Source: an uncultured Lachnospiraceae bacterium (GTDB lineage: Bacteria; Bacillota; Clostridia; Lachnospirales; Lachnospiraceae). Taken from it: a stretch of DNA of 56,417 bases. The stretch's first letter is position 1, and every line of letters begins with the position of its first letter. Of the stretch, positions 4,927 through 47,627 are shown piece by piece. The stretch spans positions 1 to 56,417 of the forward strand of contig CAMWFQ010000028.1 in assembly GCA_947173495.1 (NCBI GenBank), written 5' to 3'. Below the pieces are notes generated by a model. It ran no database searches. It was not told the DNA's origin and worked only from the letters and a program-made list of their open reading frames with translations. Made by a program: the position numbers and the translations under genes.

Positions 4927-5886
4927 ATGAAAAAGAAGATCAGCAATATTTTTGTGCAGAGAGTTTTAAGGTATGGAAAGAGGAAGGTGAACCGTCAGAC
5001 CAAGGACAGGCTCTTCCGGTTTCTGTTTGAGAAAGACAGGCAGGCACTACTGGAGCTGTATAATGCGCTGAACGGGACGGAATACAGAGATCCGGCCATG
5101 CTTGAGGTGGTGACCATAGAAAGCGCAGTCTATATTGTGATGAAAAATGACCTTGCCTTTGTGGTAGCAGGTGTTTTAAACTTGTATGAGCACCAGAGCA
5201 GCTGCAATCCCAATATGCCGGTAAGGTTTTTGATCTATCTGGCCCAGGAGTATCAGAAGCTGATTGAGAAGTCGGACAGGAGCCTGTACGGAACAAAGAG
5301 GATCTGCCTTCCGGTACCCCGGTGCATCGTGTTTTACAACGGAACAAAAGATATGCCGGAGGAAGAGGAAATGCGGCTTTCAGATGCCTTCGAGAACAGG
5401 GAGATGGAAGGAGCTGCAGAGCTGAAGGTAAAAGTGTTGAACATAAATTACGGCTGTAATGAAGAGCTGATGAGCAGGTGCAGAATTCTGGAGGAGTATG
5501 CGAGGTTTGTGGAGGTAAGCCGGGCATATGCGTCTCAGGGAAAGAGCATGAAGACGGCGCTGAGCGAAGCCATCGATTATTGTATTGAGAACAATATATT
5601 AGGAGAGTTTCTGAAAAAATACCGGGCGGAGGTGTTGGGAATGCTGCTGGAAGAGTTTGATGCGGATAAGTATGAGAGAAGCATAAGAGAAGAGGGGCGC
5701 GAGGAGGGCTATTCGGCGGGACAGCAGGAGGGTTATCATACAGGAGACGCGGAGAGAATGATCATAAGCGTGGAGCAGATCATGAAAAACCTGCAGACCG
5801 ATATACCGGAGGCCTGCAGGCTGATCGGAGTGAGTGTGGAGGAGTATCAGAAAGCAAAAGCAAACATTATGATGCAGAAAGCGTAA
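4927..5886 (+). CDS. Rpn/YhgA-type PD-(D/E)XK nuclease
   Basis: A 319-residue member of the Rpn (recombination-promoting nuclease, YhgA/transposase_31-related) group common in Clostridia. The N-terminal part has the family segments KDRLFRFLFEKDRQALLELYNALNGTEY and NLYEHQSS followed by the PVRFLIYLAQEY helix; the usual acidic catalytic residues lie in MLEVVTIESAVYI and LYEHQ. The C-terminus is charged, with the RSIREEGREEGYSAGQQEGY-type low-complexity stretch typical of these proteins. I chose 4927 because AGGGAGG lies just upstream; the open frame extends 43 codons further without a ribosome site. It ends 8 bases before the DUF3781 gene. Its cellular role is unknown. Confidence 0.8.
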   Translation: MKKKISNIFVQRVLRYGKRKVNRQTKDRLFRFLFEKDRQALLELYNALNGTEYRDPAMLEVVTIESAVYIVMKNDLAFVVAGVLNLYEHQSSCNPNMPVRFLIYLAQEYQKLIEKSDRSLYGTKRICLPVPRCIVFYNGTKDMPEEEEMRLSDAFENREMEGAAELKVKVLNINYGCNEELMSRCRILEEYARFVEVSRAYASQGKSMKTALSEAIDYCIENNILGEFLKKYRAEVLGMLLEEFDADKYERSIREEGREEGYSAGQQEGYHTGDAERMIISVEQIMKNLQTDIPEACRLIGVSVEEYQKAKANIMMQKA

Positions 5887-6143: not shown

Positions 6144-6302
6144 CCTGGACAAGGAGCAGCAGAGTTAACCTGAATCGGCAGGCTCTGGCACTCTCTGAAA
6201 ACCAGTTAAGTCCCCGATATAAAACGGGATAAAACCAATCCGTCAAAGTTGACTTCTCCTCCCCAATATGCTACAATCCCCTAAACAATTGAATAGCAGA
6301 AA

Positions 6303-6446
6303 TGTCTTCAGGGCAGGGTGACTCTTCTTACACATCAGAAGTTTAAGAAGCAAGAATTCCCGATCGGCGGTGACAGTCCGCGGGCGCGAAAGCGCGGGGT
6401 TCGGTGAAATTCCGGAACCGACGGTATAGTCCGGATTAAAGAAGGT
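6303..6446 (+). ncRNA. FMN riboswitch (RFN element)
   Basis: The conserved FMN-aptamer blocks occur in order: TCTTCAGGGCAGGGTG at 6305, AATTCCCGATCGGCGGT around 6355, CAGTCCGCG at 6375, TTCGGTGAAATTCCGGAACC around 6400, and the closing ACGGTATAGTCCGGAT up to GAAG at 6441-6444, which pairs with the opening CTTC. The first arm is longer than usual, with an extra hairpin (CTTCTTA pairing with TAAGAAG). It sits 150 bases before a riboflavin transporter, the expected target: FMN binding should favour the terminator at 6541. Confidence 0.96.
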
Positions 6447-6540
6447 GTATTGAGATTGTCAGGATAAACAAATCTGACTATGATTTTGCACACTCTTTTA
6501 TCAGATGCTCTGTTGGCATTTTCAATATACCTTAAATTTT

Positions 6541-7281: not shown

Positions 7282-7319
7282 AGGAAGCAGAAAACAAAAA
7301 ATCAGGTATGGAGGAGCAT

Positions 7320-10300
7320 ATGAGCAGTGTAAGGGTCTGGAAGGAAAAAACAACGATTCCCACCTATGAGATCGGGGAGGCTGAAAAAAATCCCATTTTC
7401 CTTGACAAGCGTGTGTATCAGGGAAGCTCGGGAAAGGTCTATCCCTACCCTACCGTGGAAAAGATCAGCAGTGAGAAAAGGGATAAGGAATATGAGGCGG
7501 TTTATCTGGAAAACGAATATTTGAAGGTGATGATTCTGCCGGAACTGGGGGGCAGGATCCAGCGGGCATATGACAAGACCAACGGCTATGATTTTGTCTA
7601 TTATAATCAGGTGATCAAGCCGGCTCTGGTGGGACTGACAGGTCCCTGGATTTCCGGAGGCATTGAGTTTAACTGGCCGCAGCATCACAGGCCGACCACC
7701 TTCCTTCCGGTAGATGTGGAGATTCTGGAAAATGAGGATGGAAGTAGATCGGTGCTCTGTCATGATGTGGATCAGATGTACGGGACCAAGGGGATTGCGA
7801 AATTTACCCTGTATCCGGGCCGGGCCTATATTGAGGTGGAGGGACAGCTTTACAACCGCACCGCTCTTCCCCAGACGTTTCTGTGGTGGGCCAACCCGGC
7901 GGTGCCCGTCAACGAGAATACTCAGTCTGTGTTTCCGCCGGATGTGCACGCGGTGATGGATCACGGCAAGCGAGATGTGTCCCGGTTCCCCATTGCTACA
8001 GGGGTGTACTACAAAAAGGATTACAGCGATGGGGTGGATATTTCCCGGTACAAAAATATCCCGGTACCCACATCTTACATGGCGGAGAAGTCAAAGTATG
8101 ATTTTGTGGGAGGCTATGATTACGGAAAAGAAGCGGGAATTCTCCATGTGGCCGATCATCATATTTCCCCCGGCAAGAAGCAGTGGACGTGGGGATGTGG
8201 GGATTTCGGAAAGGCATGGGATCGAAATCTCACGGATGAGGATGGTCCCTATGTGGAGCTGATGACCGGTGTTTATACGGATAATCAGCCGGACTTCACC
8301 TGGCTCAAGCCCTTTGAGGAAAAAACATTCAAACAGTATTTCATGCCCTATAAGGCAGCCGGGCAGGTCAAAAATGCAACCACCGAGGCGGCTGTCCATC
8401 TTTCCCTGGAAGAGGGAAAAGCAAAGGTGATCGTCTATGCCACAGGGGTTTATGAAGATGCGGATATTGTGCTGACAGCAGGGGGTGAAACACTTCTGGA
8501 TATGAAGACAAAGCTTTCGCCGGTGGATATTTTTAAGGCGGAAGTGCCTGTAGATACAGGAGTGAAAAGCAGGAAAGCGTCGGGCGGGCAGGAATTGCCG
8601 ACAAAAGAGACGAAGCCGGAATCAAAAGAAATCCGGGAAGAGGATCTGCATCTGGCAGTCTATGCAGGCGGCAGGTGTCTGGTGGAATACCGGCCTGATC
8701 CACAGGAGATTCCTCAGCTGCCGGAGCCTGCAAGGGCGGCTCAGGAGCCGGAGGAGATCCGCACCTGTGAGGAGCTTTACCTTACCGGACAGCATATAGA
8801 GCAGTATCGTCACGCCACTTATCTGCCGGATCCCTATTATCTGGAAGGGTTAAAGCGCGATCCCGGCGATATCCGGCTGAACAATGCCTACGGGCAGCTT
8901 TTGATGAGAAGAGGGCAGTTTGTCGCGGCGGAGAAGTATTTTCGAAAGGCGATTGAAAGACTGACCTTCAGAAACCCCAATCCTTATAACAGCGAATCCT
9001 ATTACCTTCTGGGGCTGTCTCTTTTTTATCAGAGAAGGAACGAAGAAGCCTATGATGCGTTCTATAAGGCCACATGGAGCAACGAGCAGCAGGAGATGTC
9101 CTTCTATTACCTTGCGGCGATTGATGCTGCAGCCGGAAGATGGGCAAAAGCACTTGCTCACGTGGAGAAAGCGCTGGTCAAAAATACCCACAACATCAAG
9201 GCCAGAGGACTGAAGGCATATCTGCTCAGAAAGACAGGCCAGAAGAGACAGGCCGCAGACTGGATCAAAGAGAACCTGAAGCTGGATCCATTTGACTTTT
9301 TGTCCGGCAATGAGCAGGTACTTCTGAGTATGGAAGAGGGGCCGGAGGGCAGCAGAAAAAGTGCAGAGCTGCGTGAAAACCTGAACGGCAGAATGCGTAT
9401 GTTCCATGAGAATTATCTGATGACTGCAAGGGATTACGGGGAAATGGGAGCCTGGGAGGAGGCCCTGGATCTGCTTGCGGAATGTGCCGGCCAGTTTCCG
9501 GGAAGGTTTCCCATGCTTTCTTATTACAAAGCTTACTACAGGTATCTGGCGGATCAAAAACTCTCAGGTGTATCGGAAAAGGCTGTCCTTCCGGTGCAAA
9601 ACCTGTCGGAAGAGGTGAAAGCATCTCTGGAAGAAGCGGAAAGTTGCGTGCCGGATTATTGCTTCCCCAACAAGTTGGAGGACATTGCAGTATTATCCTT
9701 TGCCGTCCGGAACGGGTGCCATGGGAGAGCGGCTTATTATCTGGGAAATCTTTATTATGACAAACTCCAGTGGCAGGAGGCGCTAAAACTCTGGGAGATG
9801 TCTGCCCAGGCGAAACCGGATTTCTCTACCGTACACAGGAATCTGTCTCTTGTCTATTACAATAAATGCGGGGATAAAAAGAAAGCACAGGAAGCTATGG
9901 AGAGAGCCTTTGTGCTGAATCCGCAGGATGCCAGAGTATTCCTGGAGCTGGATCAGCTCTACAAAAAGCTGGGATGGAGCTTTGAGAGCCGCCTGGAAAA
10001 CTATGAGAAGCACAGAGAGCTGGCACAGTCCAGAGACGATCTTTTCATTGAATATATTACGCTGGTGAATCTCACGGGAAATCATGAAGGAGCCTATGCG
10101 CTTATGAGAGAACACCATTTTCATCCCTGGGAAGGCGGCGAAGGCAAGATCACCACGCAGTATACTCTTGCGCTGCTGACTCTGGCCCGGAAGGCGCAGG
10201 CCTGTGGAAATCATGCAGAGGCGGAGAAGCTGCTGAGAGGGGCTCTTGTATATCCGGAGAATCTGGGCGAAGGCAAGCTGGAGGGCACCACGGATAACCA

Positions 10301-10763
10301 CCTTTATTATCACCTGGGACTTTCTCTTGCAGCCCAGGGAAGAGAAGCGGAGGCAAAGGAGTGCTTCGAGAGAGCAACCCTGGGAACCGACGAGCCTGCC
10401 GGTGCTATGTACTATAACGATCAGCCGGTGGATATGATCCTGTATCAGGGCCTTGCCTTCCTGAAGCTGGGAAAAAGCAGAGAGGCAAAATCCCGCTTCT
10501 ACCGCCTTCTGGACTACGGCGAGCGGCATATAAACGACAAAGTAAAGATCGAATATTTTGCAGTTTCCCTGCCGGATTTTCTGATCTTTGACGAAGACTA
10601 CACCCTGAAAAACAGAGCCCACTGTTGTTACCTCATGGCCCTGGGCAATCTGGGACTGGGAATCAAAGAAAAGGCGGAGGATTTCCTGAATCAGACCCTG
10701 GAAATCGAGCCCTCTCACATGATGGCCAATATTTACAGCACAATCATTGCAGAACTGGAATAA
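7320..10763 (+). CDS. DUF5107 domain protein with C-terminal TPR array
   Basis: A very large (1147-residue) cytoplasmic protein. Residues 1-350 match DUF5107, a beta-rich domain related to aldose-epimerase-like folds in glycan loci; PELGGRIQRAYDK and GPWISGGIEFNWPQHHRP are typical. From about residue 500 to the end come helix-turn-helix tetratricopeptide units (for example RRGQFVAAEKYFRKAIERL and KQAYLGN-like pairs with conserved small and aromatic positions). I chose the ATG at 7320, 5 bases after GGAGG, over the in-frame ATG at 7308 that overlaps that site. It is followed by repeats and a GH2 gene on the same strand, so a role in sensing or processing glycans is inferred. The biochemical function is unknown. 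Confidence 0.82.
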   Translation: MSSVRVWKEKTTIPTYEIGEAEKNPIFLDKRVYQGSSGKVYPYPTVEKISSEKRDKEYEAVYLENEYLKVMILPELGGRIQRAYDKTNGYDFVYYNQVIKPALVGLTGPWISGGIEFNWPQHHRPTTFLPVDVEILENEDGSRSVLCHDVDQMYGTKGIAKFTLYPGRAYIEVEGQLYNRTALPQTFLWWANPAVPVNENTQSVFPPDVHAVMDHGKRDVSRFPIATGVYYKKDYSDGVDISRYKNIPVPTSYMAEKSKYDFVGGYDYGKEAGILHVADHHISPGKKQWTWGCGDFGKAWDRNLTDEDGPYVELMTGVYTDNQPDFTWLKPFEEKTFKQYFMPYKAAGQVKNATTEAAVHLSLEEGKAKVIVYATGVYEDADIVLTAGGETLLDMKTKLSPVDIFKAEVPVDTGVKSRKASGGQELPTKETKPESKEIREEDLHLAVYAGGRCLVEYRPDPQEIPQLPEPARAAQEPEEIRTCEELYLTGQHIEQYRHATYLPDPYYLEGLKRDPGDIRLNNAYGQLLMRRGQFVAAEKYFRKAIERLTFRNPNPYNSESYYLLGLSLFYQRRNEEAYDAFYKATWSNEQQEMSFYYLAAIDAAAGRWAKALAHVEKALVKNTHNIKARGLKAYLLRKTGQKRQAADWIKENLKLDPFDFLSGNEQVLLSMEEGPEGSRKSAELRENLNGRMRMFHENYLMTARDYGEMGAWEEALDLLAECAGQFPGRFPMLSYYKAYYRYLADQKLSGVSEKAVLPVQNLSEEVKASLEEAESCVPDYCFPNKLEDIAVLSFAVRNGCHGRAAYYLGNLYYDKLQWQEALKLWEMSAQAKPDFSTVHRNLSLVYYNKCGDKKKAQEAMERAFVLNPQDARVFLELDQLYKKLGWSFESRLENYEKHRELAQSRDDLFIEYITLVNLTGNHEGAYALMREHHFHPWEGGEGKITTQYTLALLTLARKAQACGNHAEAEKLLRGALVYPENLGEGKLEGTTDNHLYYHLGLSLAAQGREAEAKECFERATLGTDEPAGAMYYNDQPVDMILYQGLAFLKLGKSREAKSRFYRLLDYGERHINDKVKIEYFAVSLPDFLIFDEDYTLKNRAHCCYLMALGNLGLGIKEKAEDFLNQTLEIEPSHMMANIYSTIIAELE

Positions 10764-10985
10764 AAATCAGCAGCGAAGCAGAGGGAGGCGGCACAATTTC
10801 CAGTCACGAAAGTGAATGGAAATTCGTGCCAGACAAAGGCGTCCCGAAGCGCAGCTGCGGAACTGGAATAAAAATCAGCAGCGAAACGGAAGCGCCCGGC
10901 TCAATTTGCGGATGTCGAAGGCAGCTGCAAATCTGAGCCAGACAAAGGGGGGCTGGAGAGGAGCTGCGGAACTGGAATAGGAGGT
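10752..10985 (+). repeat. Family A hairpin-repeat array, two units
   Basis: Two units, delimited by the linker GAACTGGAA at 10752, 10860 and 10969 (periods 108 and 109). Each unit folds into one long hairpin: unit 1 pairs 10790-10807 with 10812-10830 around a GAAA loop; unit 2 pairs 10898-10916 with 10920-10939 around GAA. Both keep a bulged C (10825, 10933) and a purine-purine mismatch under the apex, although most paired bases differ. The first linker encodes the last codons and stop of the DUF5107 gene, and the last runs into AGGAGG of the GH2 gene. No ORF is conserved. Confidence 0.85.
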
Positions 10986-10989
10986 TATG

Positions 10990-18213: not shown

Positions 18214-18251
18214 CTTTTGTTCTCCTCCATATAAAAATACCTTATACAGGC

Positions 18252-18470
18252 CTGCATGCTGCGTCAGCAGCAAATTCCCTTGCGCGTGCCTGTACAATCG
18301 AGCAGGGAAGGCTTTTCTCCCAGCTCGCTGCGCGGCCCGCATGTTGCGCCAGCAGCAAATTCCCTTATGCGTGCCTGTACAATCGAGCAGGGAAGGCTTT
18401 TCGCCCTGCTCGCCGCGCGCCCCATGCGCCGCATTAGCGGCATACTTCCTCTGCATGGGGTTGCGCATAA
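18252..18470 (-). repeat. Family B hairpin-repeat array in the mntP leader
   Basis: On the minus strand, three units lie between the riboswitch terminator and mntP. Each has a variable two-storey hairpin: the first has outer stem CCCCATGC/GCATGGGG, inner GCCGC/GCGGC and a purine-rich AGAGGAAGTAT bulge; the last has inner GCTGC/GCAGC. Each of the first two is followed by a constant hairpin, GAGCAGGG pairing with CCCTGCTC around GAAAAGC, and by the linker GATTGTACAGG. The period is 85 bases. The array ends 39 bases before the mntP start codon. Confidence 0.82.
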
Positions 18471-37579: not shown

Positions 37580-37733
37580 ATGCACAGGTCCGCTTGGGGA
37601 AGTCAGCTGCTGAAGCAGCATGCGGCCCGCGCGCGAGCAGGGAGAAAATCTTCCCTGCTCGATTGCACAGGTCCGCCCGGGGAAGTTAGCTGCTGAAGCA
37701 GCATGCGGCCCGCGCGAGCAGGGAATCTGCTGC
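37580..37733 (+). repeat. Family B hairpin-repeat array after metI
   Basis: One full unit and most of a second, starting TTATGCACAGG directly at the metI terminator T-tract; the period is 83 bases. Each begins with the linker TGCACAGG and a variable hairpin (outer CCGC/GCGG, inner GCTGC/GCAGC around TGAA, purine-rich GGGGAAG bulge). The first has the full constant hairpin, GAGCAGGGA with TCCCTGCTC around GAAAATCT; the second is cut after its 5' arm. The stretch between the two arrays (37734-37952) contains a promoter and otherwise nothing recognised. Confidence 0.82.
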
Positions 37734-37851
37734 CGGAATATGGATGAGACCAGTACAGGGCATTTTGCCCAGAATGCAAATGTGAAAGATGTGGTTTTAT
37801 TTATTAGATTTGTGCATTATGTTTAATTTCGTTTGAATCTGTTTTGGTTTG

Positions 37852-37880
37852 TTGACAAAATAGTGAAACAGGTATAAACT
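37852..37880 (+). promoter_or_regulatory. Putative promoter between two family B arrays
   Basis: TTGACA (37852-37857), a 17-base spacer and TAAACT (37875-37880); TATAAA two bases earlier is an alternative -10. It would transcribe the second family B array as the 5' leader of the GH88 gene. Confidence 0.6.
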
Positions 37881-37952
37881 TAGAGAAGCGAGAAGCAATA
37901 CTGGTATTTTATGGATGGAAGGGAGATGCGCTGTGCGTGATGTCCCTTGTAT

Positions 37953-38160
37953 TATGCACAGGGGCACCCAGAGGAAAAATGTCAGCAAAAGCTGATGGGT
38001 GCCCGGCGCGCGAGCAGGGAGAAAAAGCCTCCCCCTACTCGATTGCACAGGGGTGCACAGATGAAATTGTTGCCTGTGTAACGTGCACCGCGCGCGAGCA
38101 GGGAAGGAATTGCCCCTGCTTGATTTACAGGGGTATATGGACACGCACCGTGTGACGGCA
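37953..38160 (+). repeat. Family B hairpin-repeat array in the GH88 leader
   Basis: Two full units and part of a third (linker copies at 37955, 38044 and 38125). The outer stems of the variable hairpins differ completely: GGGCACCCA/TGGGTGCCC (37962-37970 with 37996-38004) in the first and GGTGCAC/GTGCACC in the second, while the constant GAGCAGGG hairpin is kept in both. Inner stem in the first is TCAGC/GCTGA around AAAA. The array ends about 23 bases before the GH88 start codon. Confidence 0.82.
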
Positions 38161-42783: not shown

Positions 42784-42857
42784 TACCGTCCACCGTATAA
42801 ACGTTTCGGAATGGAGATTAAAATGACAGAAAATAAGTGTGAGTGATTATACACAGG

Positions 42858-42885
42858 AAAAATGCCCATTAGGGCATTTTTCTTT
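42858..42885 (+). terminator. Terminator after the MalFG-type permeases
   Basis: AAAAATGCCC (42858-42867) pairs with the reverse complement from 42871 around ATT, then T5 and CTTT. A degenerate family A fragment starts within a few bases of the T-tract. Confidence 0.85.
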
Positions 42886-42918
42886 CACAAAAACAGCAGG
42901 TGCATGAAAGACATTTGC

Positions 42919-43241
42919 GGAACAGGAAACAGCAGCCATTCGAAAGAACACGGCAAAATTTATGGGCGCGGAAGCGTCCGGAAAATATGCCAGGTGAAAG
43001 TGCACTGAAGAAATGGCTACGGAACAGGAAACAGCAGCCATTCGAAAGAGCACGGCAAAGTTTACGACCACGGAAGTGGACGGAAATTTTGCCAGGTGAA
43101 AGTGCACTGAAGGAATGGCTGCGGAACAGGAAACAGCAGCCATTCGAAAGAGCACGGCAAAGTTTACGACCACGGAAGTGGACGGAAATTTTGCCAGGTG
43201 AAAGTGCACTGAAGGAATGGCTGCGGAACTGGAAATAGGAG
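42919..43241 (+). repeat. Family A hairpin-repeat array, three 102-bp units
   Basis: Units at 42919, 43021 and 43123 are each exactly 102 bp and start with GGAACAGGAAAC. The second and third are identical; the first differs at many bases. Each folds into one hairpin: GCAGCCATTC (43034-43043) with GAATGGCTGC (43113-43122), then 43054-43066 with 43081-43093, then CCAC/GTGG around a GGAA loop. In unit 1 the apical stem is GGGCGC/GCGTCC, still paired and still closed by GGAA. A decayed copy precedes the array. The last linker, GGAACTGGAAATAGGAG, supplies the ribosome site of the GH2 gene. Confidence 0.9.
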
Positions 43242-43253
43242 AAAACAAATCAA

Positions 43254-44939
43254 ATGATCAGAACATTTAGAACAAACAATATCAGAAAAGTAACGGAGCT
43301 AAGTGACAGTCTGTGGAGATTTTCCCCCTGTGATGGAGAATTCGCAGGACGTATCTATCCGGTTACAGTCCCCTGCTGCTGGGAAAGTCTGCCTGATTTT
43401 TCTGCATATCGGGGAGTGGGCGTATTTCAAAAGGAGTTTCAGGCGGAAGGGAATATCCGGCTGGTGTTTAAGGGAGTCAGCCACACTGCAAGAATCTGCG
43501 TGGATGGCAGAGAAGCAGGAACGCATTATAACGCCTATACCCCGTTTGCTGTTGAGCTGAAGAATCTGGAGCAGGGGATTCACCGGCTGGAGGTCTATGC
43601 GGATAACCGCTTCAGCGAAGAAAGCGCTCTGCATGTACCTAACGATTATATGAGCTACGGAGGAATTTCAAGGGGAGTAGTGTTGGAGGAATTAGGAGAT
43701 GCATATATCGAATATCTTCATGCTGTTCCGGTAAAAGAGGAGGATGGCTGGTATGTTCTCATGTCAGTGAAGCTTCATTCTCTGGCAGAGAGAGATCTGA
43801 CCTGCCGTCTGGATGTGAGGCTGGAGGAGAAAGGGACGGTATCAGAAAAACTGACCTTAAAGGCAGGAGAAGAAAAGGTTATTGAGAAAAGGCTTGCGGC
43901 CGGAGACGTAGAGGTATGGGATATGGAAACAGCCAGACTTTACGCTGTCTCCGCAGAGCTTTTTACAGAGGATTCGCAGCAGGCACCGGTAGATGATCTG
44001 ATAGAGCGATTGGGTTTTCGTCAGATCAGAACGGAAGGAAAAGACATTCTTTTGAATGGAAGGAAGATAAGGATTAAAGGGTTCTGCCGCCATGAGGATC
44101 ATCCTATGTTTGGATGTGCTCTGCCTTTTGCCGCTATTGAGCAGGATCTTCAGATTGCAGGGGATCTGGGAGCCAATGCAATACGGACTTCACACTATCC
44201 CAATGACGAGCTGTTCCTTGATTTGTGTGATGAGCAGGGAATCCTGGTGTGGGAAGAAAATCATGCGAGAGGCCTTTCCCTTGAGCAGATGGAAAATCCT
44301 AATTTTGAAAGACAGGCTGAGGAATGTATCAGAGAAATGATCACAGCCCATATCAATCATCCTTCCATTATTATCTGGGGGATTTTAAATGAATGTGCAA
44401 GCGATACTGAATATGGATATGAATGTTATAAAAAGCAGTATGAGCTGATCCGCCGGATGGACACATCCAGACCGAGATCTTCTTCCAGCTGTAAATTTAA
44501 GACCGATATCTGCTTCGGGCTTCCGGAGATTGTTTCTTATAATCTGTATCCGGAATGGTATCATGATACACCTGCTGCCGAGTATGTGAAGGATATCTAT
44601 AACTGGGTGCAGGAGGAAAGTGAGGGAAGCGGTAAACCTTTTCTGGTGACAGAGATCGGCGCCGGTGCTATTTATGGATACAGGACGCCTGCGCTGTGTA
44701 AGTGGTCTGAGGAGTATCAGGCACAGGCCCTGGAACATCAGATCAAAGCGGTACTGGAACAGGAGGGATGCAGCGGTATCTTCATCTGGCAGTTCTGTGA
44801 TGTGAGAATCAGTGCCGAATGGTTCGCCAATCGTCCCCGTACTTTAAATAATAAAGGAATCGTGGATGAATACAGGCGCAGAAAGCTCTCCTATGACGTA
44901 GTAAAGAGACTTTATCATTCCTATTCAGATTACCGATAG
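43254..44939 (+). CDS. GH2 beta-glucuronidase candidate
   Basis: A 561-residue GH2 enzyme in the compact three-domain form: sugar-binding domain (about 1-145), immunoglobulin-like domain (145-255) and TIM barrel (255-561). The acid/base is E380 in GILNECASD and the nucleophile E467 in FLVTEIGAGA. N532-N533-K534-G fits the N-x-K motif that holds the glucuronate carboxylate in beta-glucuronidases (N566 and K568 in the E. coli enzyme), and FCRHEDHPMFG fits too. Glucuronidase is therefore favoured over galactosidase, in line with the nearby GH88. The length is slightly short. Family A repeats precede it. Confidence 0.85.
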   Translation: MIRTFRTNNIRKVTELSDSLWRFSPCDGEFAGRIYPVTVPCCWESLPDFSAYRGVGVFQKEFQAEGNIRLVFKGVSHTARICVDGREAGTHYNAYTPFAVELKNLEQGIHRLEVYADNRFSEESALHVPNDYMSYGGISRGVVLEELGDAYIEYLHAVPVKEEDGWYVLMSVKLHSLAERDLTCRLDVRLEEKGTVSEKLTLKAGEEKVIEKRLAAGDVEVWDMETARLYAVSAELFTEDSQQAPVDDLIERLGFRQIRTEGKDILLNGRKIRIKGFCRHEDHPMFGCALPFAAIEQDLQIAGDLGANAIRTSHYPNDELFLDLCDEQGILVWEENHARGLSLEQMENPNFERQAEECIREMITAHINHPSIIIWGILNECASDTEYGYECYKKQYELIRRMDTSRPRSSSSCKFKTDICFGLPEIVSYNLYPEWYHDTPAAEYVKDIYNWVQEESEGSGKPFLVTEIGAGAIYGYRTPALCKWSEEYQAQALEHQIKAVLEQEGCSGIFIWQFCDVRISAEWFANRPRTLNNKGIVDEYRRRKLSYDVVKRLYHSYSDYR

Positions 44940-46088: not shown

Positions 46089-46145
46089 GGAAACTGGAAT
46101 CAGCAGGTGCCGGAAGGGCACGGCACAATTTACAGGAACAGGAGG
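46089..46145 (+). repeat. Truncated family A repeat before the kinase gene
   Basis: GGAAACTGGAATCAGCAG (46089-46106) is the family A linker, followed by a short hairpin, GTGCC with GGCAC around GGAAG, then GGCACAATTT and GGAACAGGAGG, which is the terminal linker with the ribosome site. The unit is about half normal length. It begins six bases after the lacI stop. Confidence 0.7.
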
Positions 46146-46154
46146 TTGAATGTT

Positions 46155-47627
46155 ATGCTGTACATAGGGATTGATCTGGGCACCAGTGCGGTAAAGCTTC
46201 TTCTCATGGATGGAGAAGGCAGGATTCAGAAGATTGTATCACGAAGCTATCCCATCTTCTATCCTCATCCGGGATGGTCACAGCAGAATCCGGAGGACTG
46301 GTTTGAACAGACGATGGAGGGAATCAAAGAGCTGATCGAGGACGTAGATAAAAGCCAGGTGGCAGGGATCAGTTTTGGAGGTCAGATGCATGGGCTTGTA
46401 ATTCTGGATGAGGAAGATCAAGTGATACGTCCGGCTATTTTGTGGAATGATGGGCGGACCTCTGAAGAAAATGACTATTTGAACAATGTCATTGGAAAGG
46501 AGAAGCTGTCTGAATACACAGCAAATATATCCTTTACCGGCTTTACGGCACCCAAACTCCTGTGGGTAAAAAATAAGGAACCGGAAAACTTTGCACGAAT
46601 CTCCAAAATTATGCTGCCCAAGGACTATATTGCCTATAAGCTTACCGGAGTGCACTGCACTGATATGTCAGACGCTTCCGGGATGCTGCTTCTGGATGTG
46701 AAAAACCGCAGATGGTCAAAAGAAATGTGCGGGATCTGCCAAATTAATGAGAGCATGCTGCCAAAGCTGTTCGAGAGTTATGAATGCGTGGGTACAGTGA
46801 AAGAAGAGATTGCTGCAAAGCTGGGAATCTCACCTTCTGTTAAAGTGGCGGCAGGAGCAGGAGACAATGCGGCAGCGGCAGTTGGAACCGGAACGGTAGG
46901 GGAAGGGATGTGTAATATTTCTCTGGGGACCAGCGGAACCATTTTCATTTCGTCCGGGAAATTTGGAGTGGATAAGTTTAATGCGCTTCATGCATTTGCA
47001 CATGCAGACGGGAATTATCATCTGATGGGATGTATGCTGAGTGCTGCTTCCTGTAACAAATGGTGGCTGGAGGATATCATCGGGACCGGTGATTATTCAG
47101 CGGAACAGGAGAAGATTGATGGTCTTGGTGAAAATCATGTCTTTTTTCTGCCATATTTGATGGGGGAGCGTTCTCCACACAATGATCCCAATGCCAGAGG
47201 AACCTTTATCGGTATGAGTATGGACACTACAAGAGCGGATATGACGCAGGCGGTTCTGGAAGGAGTTGCTTTTGCGCTCAGAGATTCTCTGGAGGTTGCC
47301 AGAAGTCTTGGCATTTGTCTGGAAAGAACGAAAATCTGCGGCGGAGGAGCCAAAAGCCATCTCTGGAGAAAGATGATTGCCAATATCCTGAATCTGAAGG
47401 TAGATGTGATTGAAAGTGAAGAAGGGCCTGCACTGGGAGGCGCAATGCTGGCGGCAGTGGCCTGTGGAGAATATAAAGATGTAAAGCAGGCGGCTGAGAA
47501 AATTGTCAAAATTATCGATACAATAGAACCGGATCCGGAGCTGGCAGCAAAATATGAAAAAAAATATCAGAAATTTAGAGAAATATATCCTGCATGCCGG
47601 TCATTATTTGATATAATATCCACATAG
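46155..47627 (+). CDS. xylB: FGGY carbohydrate kinase, xylulokinase-like
   Basis: A 490-residue sugar kinase of the FGGY family. Phosphate-binding DLGTSAVK opens the N-domain, GGQMHGLV and PAILWNDGRT are typical of xylulokinases, the catalytic base is D237 in AGAGDNAAAA, and CGGGAKS is the second ATP-binding motif. The enzyme should phosphorylate a ketopentose such as D-xylulose. I chose the ATG at 46155, after AGGAGG at the end of the truncated repeat; an open frame upstream overlaps lacI. DUF4867 and isomerase genes follow, but no xylose isomerase of the XylA type, so the true ketose may differ. Confidence 0.9.
   Translation: MLYIGIDLGTSAVKLLLMDGEGRIQKIVSRSYPIFYPHPGWSQQNPEDWFEQTMEGIKELIEDVDKSQVAGISFGGQMHGLVILDEEDQVIRPAILWNDGRTSEENDYLNNVIGKEKLSEYTANISFTGFTAPKLLWVKNKEPENFARISKIMLPKDYIAYKLTGVHCTDMSDASGMLLLDVKNRRWSKEMCGICQINESMLPKLFESYECVGTVKEEIAAKLGISPSVKVAAGAGDNAAAAVGTGTVGEGMCNISLGTSGTIFISSGKFGVDKFNALHAFAHADGNYHLMGCMLSAASCNKWWLEDIIGTGDYSAEQEKIDGLGENHVFFLPYLMGERSPHNDPNARGTFIGMSMDTTRADMTQAVLEGVAFALRDSLEVARSLGICLERTKICGGGAKSHLWRKMIANILNLKVDVIESEEGPALGGAMLAAVACGEYKDVKQAAEKIVKIIDTIEPDPELAAKYEKKYQKFREIYPACRSLFDIIST

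Follow-up and report, generated by a model that had tools for sequence, protein, structure and literature searches.

Tandem hairpin repeats of Lachnospiraceae with a covarying structure lie in sense directly before Shine-Dalgarno sites

The closest described systems to the hairpin repeats reported here are the BOX repeats of Streptococcus pneumoniae, the REPINs, the TAACTGA direct repeats of Beggiatoaceae, and the ERIC and NEMIS/Correia repeats. BOX elements are dispersed intergenic repeats with predicted RNA folds and tandem boxB modules of variable copy number; they are transcribed, extending operons at the 5′ and 3′ ends, and their lengths vary between strains. They are described as composites of boxA-boxB(n)-boxC, and the title of Table 1 in that source has repeats overrepresented between convergently transcribed genes (PMC3049150). 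ERIC and NEMIS/Correia are given in the same source as transcribed operon repeats able to trigger mRNA cleavage, which we count as a likeness (PMC3049150). REPINs are extragenic hairpin-forming repeats, some of them in tandem arrays, and are described as inverted REP doublets linked to RAYT and randomly distributed in extragenic space (PMC3116915). For the TAACTGA repeats, whose presence varies across genomes, a translational role has been proposed; as described, these heptamers have no predicted RNA structure and overlap the expected ribosome-binding site, Shine-Dalgarno (SD) sequences being rare (PMC4679880).

The present hairpin family was noticed in a 56,417-nt stretch of DNA from an uncultured Lachnospiraceae bacterium, which was analyzed as a whole and is called the window. 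In contrast to the composite BOX, it consists of one module type, with its hairpins placed in sense before SDs, and no constant flanking modules of a composite architecture were seen by eye at the arrays. In contrast to the REPIN doublets, each unit is a single sense-oriented hairpin of ~100 nt, and in contrast to the TAACTGA heptamers, these hairpins covary and stand upstream of a retained SD. To our knowledge, ERIC and NEMIS/Correia occur in both orientations, with neither an SD-lock nor tandem modular arrays.

When the whole window was searched against Rfam 15, only FMN scored above the gathering threshold, and no family was returned for the hairpin units. Among 20 array loci only a tRNA matched, and a permissive scan of 42800-43300 gave three matches, the best at E 0.52 and each far below its gathering score; membership in an Rfam 15 family was therefore rejected, since none reached the gathering threshold. 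The FMN riboswitch lies at 6300-6450 of the window (RF00050, 83.6 bits). No paper describing the hairpin family was found by title or abstract start, broad queries being covered in their top matches only. An earlier note, made from the letters of the window, had known of no named family that fits, and this agrees with the searches. The hairpins make up a genuine RNA family with no counterpart in Rfam 15, and the SD-lock sets it apart from BOX, REPIN and TAACTGA as those are described in their sources.

Array B of the window comprises three head-to-tail 102-nt units (42919-43224, plus strand), as claimed in the earlier note and borne out by folding and by TRF (42916-43235, period 102, 3.1 copies); the sequence of unit 1 differs from that of the identical units 2 and 3, and the GH2 gene downstream has its start codon at 43254. 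Array A stands 5′ of a beta-galactosidase-like ORF (with similarity below the NCBIfam cut-offs), and the end of the upstream ORF, 7308-10763, overlaps the first bases of its unit 1. When the five window units were aligned, 51 of the 110 columns were invariant. A further stretch, 46090-46145 (E 0.0094 in the window with filters off, 0.76 in the whole genome), is a truncated copy and a relic of the family, and precedes a sugar-kinase-like ORF (both the name and the start codon at 46155 assigned by eye). The window also holds another GC-rich repeat at 18249-18427 (85-bp unit, 2.1 copies) and, at 37581-38125, GC-rich palindromic GCGAGCAGGGA...CCTGCTCG blocks with a spacing of ~83 nt in some.

Following the proposal of the earlier note, a covariance model, R1, was built from the five window units and searched against the host genome (G000; 4.58 Mb, 97% complete), which gave 51 matches at E ≤ 4.2e-4. 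With a second model, R2, whose 58 input units came from G000 and G005, 54 units were found at E ≤ 1.2e-8 in 26 arrays: 25 arrays with 1-5 units each hold 53 of them, and the remaining one lies at C11:7165. The copy numbers are lower bounds where the draft contigs break beside arrays, at C1:46-250, C3:25-126 and C18:82001-82201. The C3 unit is nearly identical to one C18 unit, and the two may belong to one split array. Homologous units occur in related genomes as well, in 8 of the 36 other genomes of the genus (9/37 with the host itself; 1 to 58 matches each), in 7 of the 396 other genomes of a family sample (8/397) and, in a class sample, in one of 393 genomes, which is the host; for the family and class samples only 10 candidates per genome were scored, so that genomes with few copies may have been overlooked.

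When named genomes were scanned with a linker pattern, 40 loci were obtained, 29 of them with units, whose records are labelled Lachnospiraceae, Lachnoclostridium, Acetatifactor muris, [Clostridium] symbiosum (MAG), Clostridia and uncultured bacterium. Among the 11 loci without units are Siminovitchia, Treponema, Gimesia, Anaerolineales, Planctomycetota, Chakrabartyella and Clostridium sp. MCC353, the others being L094, L106, L112 and L119, three labelled Lachnospiraceae/Lachnoclostridium and one 'Bacterium 1XD21-13'. By eye, L112 has a truncated unit, and L106 and L119 have a related-looking repeat. Such repeats were seen at 2265, 2393, 3689 and 3816 of L093, at 2580 and 2696 (minus strand) of L106, and at 4980 and 5152 of L119; each has a small GTCGC-GCA-GCGAC hairpin at its end, several continue into sequence of the ACTGGAATAGGAGG type or similar to it ahead of an SD, and R2 weakly matches two stretches beside those of L093. 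Perhaps they are a sister subfamily. By blastn, the 323-nt array matched none of 50,697 phage and 72,556 plasmid records, and a phage or plasmid origin was rejected on the ground of these collections.

Table 1. Hairpin units and adjoining features of the window (TRF, tandem repeat call; R2, covariance model score)
Feature	Position	Strand	Basis
Hairpin unit 1, array A	10757..10858	+	R2 89.5 bits
Hairpin unit 2, array A	10865..10967	+	R2 77.8 bits
Array A tail GGAACTGGAATAGGAG: spacer and SD of the ORF starting at 10987	10968..10983	+	
Hairpin unit 1, array B	42919..43020	+	TRF; fold z -3.0; R2 88.4 bits
Hairpin unit 2, array B	43021..43122	+	fold z -8.0; R2 101.6 bits
Hairpin unit 3, array B, same sequence as unit 2	43123..43224	+	TRF, fold, R2 match
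Array B tail GGAACTGGAAATAGGAG: GGAACU spacer and SD of the GH2 gene	43225..43241	+	sequence
Truncated unit, with only the 5′ half of the hairpin, joined to GAACAGGAGG	46090..46145	+	identified by eye; R2 20.4 bits

Each of the five window units forms one long hairpin that is more stable than its dinucleotide shuffles (z -3.0 to -8.0), with fold energies of -28.3, -43.5 and -43.5 kcal/mol (z -3.0, -8.0 and -8.0) for units 1, 2 and 3 of array B. The earlier reading of each unit as a single long hairpin with a GGAA loop holds for the long hairpin, but the stem is broken by internal loops and by an 8-nt 3′ bulge. Its further observations, that the apical stem of unit 1 is unlike that of units 2 and 3 yet both pair, and that a similar design recurs near 10752, were confirmed, the latter by fold z-scores of -6.1 and -3.6 for the stretches 10752-10860 and 10861-10970 besides the two model units. 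In the general layout, the unit of ~100 nt has a 5′ AAW-CAG, the long hairpin with internal loops and a 3′ GGAACU, and the 3′ bulge is conserved, with 8 nt in 119 of the 150 rows and 7 nt in 26. The supposed conservation of a GNRA loop class did not survive, as a strict GNRA tetraloop occurs at the model's apical pair in only 22 of the 145 distinct units, wherein the apical loop has 3 nt in 49, 4 nt in 40 and 5 nt in 32. Thus the structure, the common design and the want of a named family stand from the earlier reading, and the loop class does not. As GGA recurs, CsrA-like GGA sites were considered as a candidate.

The hairpin pairing is conserved beyond chance. In alignment A2 (56 distinct rows), standard pairs make up 89.1% of the pair cells versus 71.8% after shuffling, with a covariation score of 0.482 versus at most 0.075 for slid structures; in alignment A5 (145 distinct rows; the best 150 of 171 matches, from 100 loci, G040 loci left out) they make up 89.3% versus 67.6% after shuffling and at most 45.3% in slid structures, with a score of 0.588 versus at most 0.090. 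These figures come from units aligned with a same-strand RNA model, which favors the structure and G·U. All nine significantly covarying column pairs of A2 are among its 32 stem pairs, and so are all 20 of the 4,851 column pairs of A5 (129 rows) that covary above a tree-preserving null, as computed by our own R-scape-like implementation and not by R-scape itself (G-test with APC, a Fitch tree and 60 null alignments, which resolve E to about 0.017). The findings support a hairpin structure under selection with compensatory changes, as the earlier note had suggested, and place the covariation above background. Neither of the two outcomes that the note had named as refuting its reading came about, given this covariation and the further copies in related genomes.

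The mismatches in the stems distinguish the two strands. Among the stem cells of 188 distinct units, each 90 nt or longer, G·U occurs 246 times versus 93 for A·C, and A·G plus G·A 352 times versus 46 for C·T plus T·C; relative to composition, an expectation computed for A2 only, G·U was seen 49 times with 176 expected and A·C 23 times with 151 expected. Since a palindrome in dsDNA with strand-symmetric mutation should not distinguish strands, this asymmetry suggests that the sense strand is selected. The selected molecule appears to be that strand, most simply as RNA, or possibly as ssDNA of the sense strand. The RNA model behind the alignment has a bias of its own toward G·U, and purine-rich sense strands may contribute to the purine mismatches. 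As a counterpoint to the RNA reading, the complementary strand of three of the five window units folds about as well as the sense strand (z -4.0, -8.2 and -5.4).

What is absent from the first reading is the sense placement at SDs, together with the genome-wide dispersal, the RNA-favoring mismatch asymmetry and the turnover between species. A GGAACU-like sequence directly follows the last unit in 83 of 88 arrays; an SD-like motif stands 8-40 nt beyond that unit in 83, and in 80 a start codon is reached at a distance of 19-30 nt. For this count, the start codon is that of the longest ORF beginning 12-90 nt past the array, arrays with <55 nt beyond them or with a repeated downstream stretch were left out, and part of the pattern-found loci had been picked by a pattern including the inter-unit linker. 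The G000 set was not so picked, and the tail 3′ of the last unit was used in building neither covariance model. Each of the 24 arrays fetched from G000 that have sequence beyond them stands in sense to the next ORF, and so does the unit at C11:7165. The arrays lie mostly just 3′ of the stop codon of the preceding cistron and sometimes near promoter-like sequence, such as the TTGACA seen by eye directly upstream of the array at L060, a locus left out of the upstream-gene comparison because its upstream genes point away.

The genes that follow are unrelated. A scan of 20 of the 23 proteins encoded downstream of arrays in G000 gave a Pfam match for 16, comprising GH2, NifU, PP2C, protein kinase, solute-binding proteins, deaminase, the flavin partner of glutamate synthase, GH20, ABC transporter, ANTAR, cupin, SpoVAEB, AraC-type regulator and others, while the labels Crt, Hbd, Ptb, Buk, Rnf and sugar kinase were given by eye, without a library match. 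The predicted accessibility of the SD is unchanged by the element, with a mean unpaired probability of 0.559 with it, 0.570 without it and 0.563 after shuffling; masking or exposure of the SD through folding was thus ruled out for these 78 arrays.

Related genomes differ in their arrays. At the buk-like locus (30 loci read of 35 genomes with a match) the stop-to-start gap is 350 nt in G000, with three units, but 20 of the 29 other genomes have a gap of no more than 30 nt. At the hbd-like locus (28 of 35) the gap measures 292 nt in G000 and ranges over 15-195 nt in 27 other genomes, two of which keep a full or degenerate unit, and these spacers elsewhere mean that long gaps are not special to the element; here G024 is clean and its relative G040 filled. 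Among the arrays listed, matched by downstream protein, the close relatives G024 (at least 17) and G040 (at least 35) share at least 11 loci, at 4 of which the tandem copy number differs; by downstream protein, with two arrays lacking usable downstream sequence dropped, G000 (24 arrays) has at least two loci in common with G040 (at least 35) and none with G024, again among the arrays listed. In two stretches of G040 with six arrays, one array is present in both genomes and five are missing or cut in G024. These deletions spare the SD, which is kept at all five sites, and element residues remain at four of them: one unit was lost between two 16-nt direct repeats, two sites have a linker or short stub, and one keeps a truncated unit, while the fifth site is clean. 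The residues point to loss in G024, and from these losses the hairpins look dispensable. Gain of units we infer only from the differing locus sets; recent insertion, as opposed to loss, was seen at no compared locus.

Within an array of G000 the units are 84% identical on average, versus 58% between arrays. Paired units of G024 and G040 differ by 0 to about 20% (two alternative pairings by 25% and 34%), with flanks 92-99% identical. In 11 such pairs, 4 of 15 pairings having been dropped as alternatives in multi-unit arrays, 351 pair cells show 9 double and 18 single changes that keep pairing and 21 changes between pairing and non-pairing, which suggests, short of proof, that the units are under selection in place.

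Several weaker hairpins were noted by eye or by score. A match at C6:173631-173689 of G000 (L264, E 0.33), by eye a shortened hairpin before an SD, is possibly another relic. The buk-like loci of G033 (L168, 32.9 bits) and G024 (L161, 30.4 bits) have weak diverged hairpins with the outline of the family before the SD, and the hbd-like locus of G043 (L202, 23.7 bits) has another, also before the SD; all three are possibly decayed or distant members. In L051, downstream of 3460 (sense), GCGGAACTGGAATCAAA is repeated in mini-units, which seem to be linkers with the hairpins shrunk to a few bases.

Three other explanations were weighed. Selfish miniature mobile DNA of the REPIN/MITE kind, in which the hairpin would be an ssDNA transposase substrate and the SD proximity a by-product of target choice, is conceivable and in our judgment rather unlikely. 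The patchy high copy number, the differing loci, the truncated relics, the loss of hairpins and the nearly equal folding of the antisense strand would all suit it, but the sense placement, the narrow start-codon distance and the excess of G·U over A·C would not, and no consistent target-site duplication was seen by eye at single-unit arrays. A RAYT/IS200-type mobilizer was rejected for the host's own genome, as PF01797 (Y1 transposase) has no match in G000, 97% complete and the carrier of 54 units; within the genus this family was matched in 21 of 37 genomes, 7 of the 9 with units and 14 of the 28 without. Neither this search of G000 nor the phage and plasmid collections yielded a mobilizer.

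A cis-regulatory switch or repressor site, wherein the bulge and GGAACU would bind a ligand or protein controlling initiation and tandem copies would act cooperatively, we regard as improbable. The near-constant bulge length, the narrow start-codon spacing and the tandem architecture speak for it, and the units do form a covarying structured leader just 5′ of a coding region, as riboswitches do; against it, the downstream genes are metabolically unrelated and do not make up one pathway among the 20 of 23 G000 proteins scanned, few loci are common to species of the genus, units get lost, and the predicted SD accessibility is unaffected. Least credible by far is a repeat-encoded peptide or chance repeat, for which 102 equals 3 x 34, a 112-aa ORF spans array B, and the ORFs 42900-43238 (+) and 42847-43248 (-) are open. 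The start-to-start spacing of units runs from 96 (L062) to 111 (L046) and reaches 127 in L056, so that the reading frame is not kept and a peptide is ruled out; moreover, the variation follows base pairing, and the arrays are located after one gene's stop codon and before another gene's SD.

Therefore, the reading that we hold, on balance, to be the probable one from the compared sequences is that the units are a dispersed, probably mobile-type, family of structured RNA leader elements, with both function and mobility predicted. Patchy presence, high copy number, few common loci and relics fit a dispersed mobile-type element, and the mixed set of downstream genes makes ligand sensing unlikely. 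The family would spread as a non-autonomous element whose entry or retention is confined to translation-initiation sites. Its hairpins would fold independently in the mRNA and hold the upstream stop codon and the downstream SD apart, and the expected effect would be to uncouple translation, to protect mRNA ends against nucleases, or both, and not to sense a ligand. Translational coupling is reported to work best when the gap is short, and it showed a negative correlation with structure immediately 3′ of the stop codon (PMC12548453). Shielding of mRNA ends has been proposed for hairpin repeats (PMC3049150).

The sense placement before the SD may stem from target choice or from selection. It is a tentative and, we think, unlikely possibility that a mobile element homes to translation-initiation sites in sense, directly 5′ of SDs, and then grows in tandem. 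Such homing could proceed through an RNA or single-stranded intermediate; autonomous hairpins would leave the host SD usable, and the units themselves, whose AAW-CAGCAG start resembles AGGAGG, might also serve as targets. If true, the SD would be an integration target and operon gaps a niche for RNA-structured parasites or modules.

In conclusion, the leader-element reading concerns a covarying RNA family that is present in dozens of copies in several genomes and sense-locked to the ribosome-binding sites of unrelated genes. The same gene pairs with and without arrays in related species, such as crotonase-like/Hbd-like and Ptb-like/Buk-like, offer a natural experiment on structured spacers and translational coupling, and the family may reveal a new way for repeats to target gene starts.
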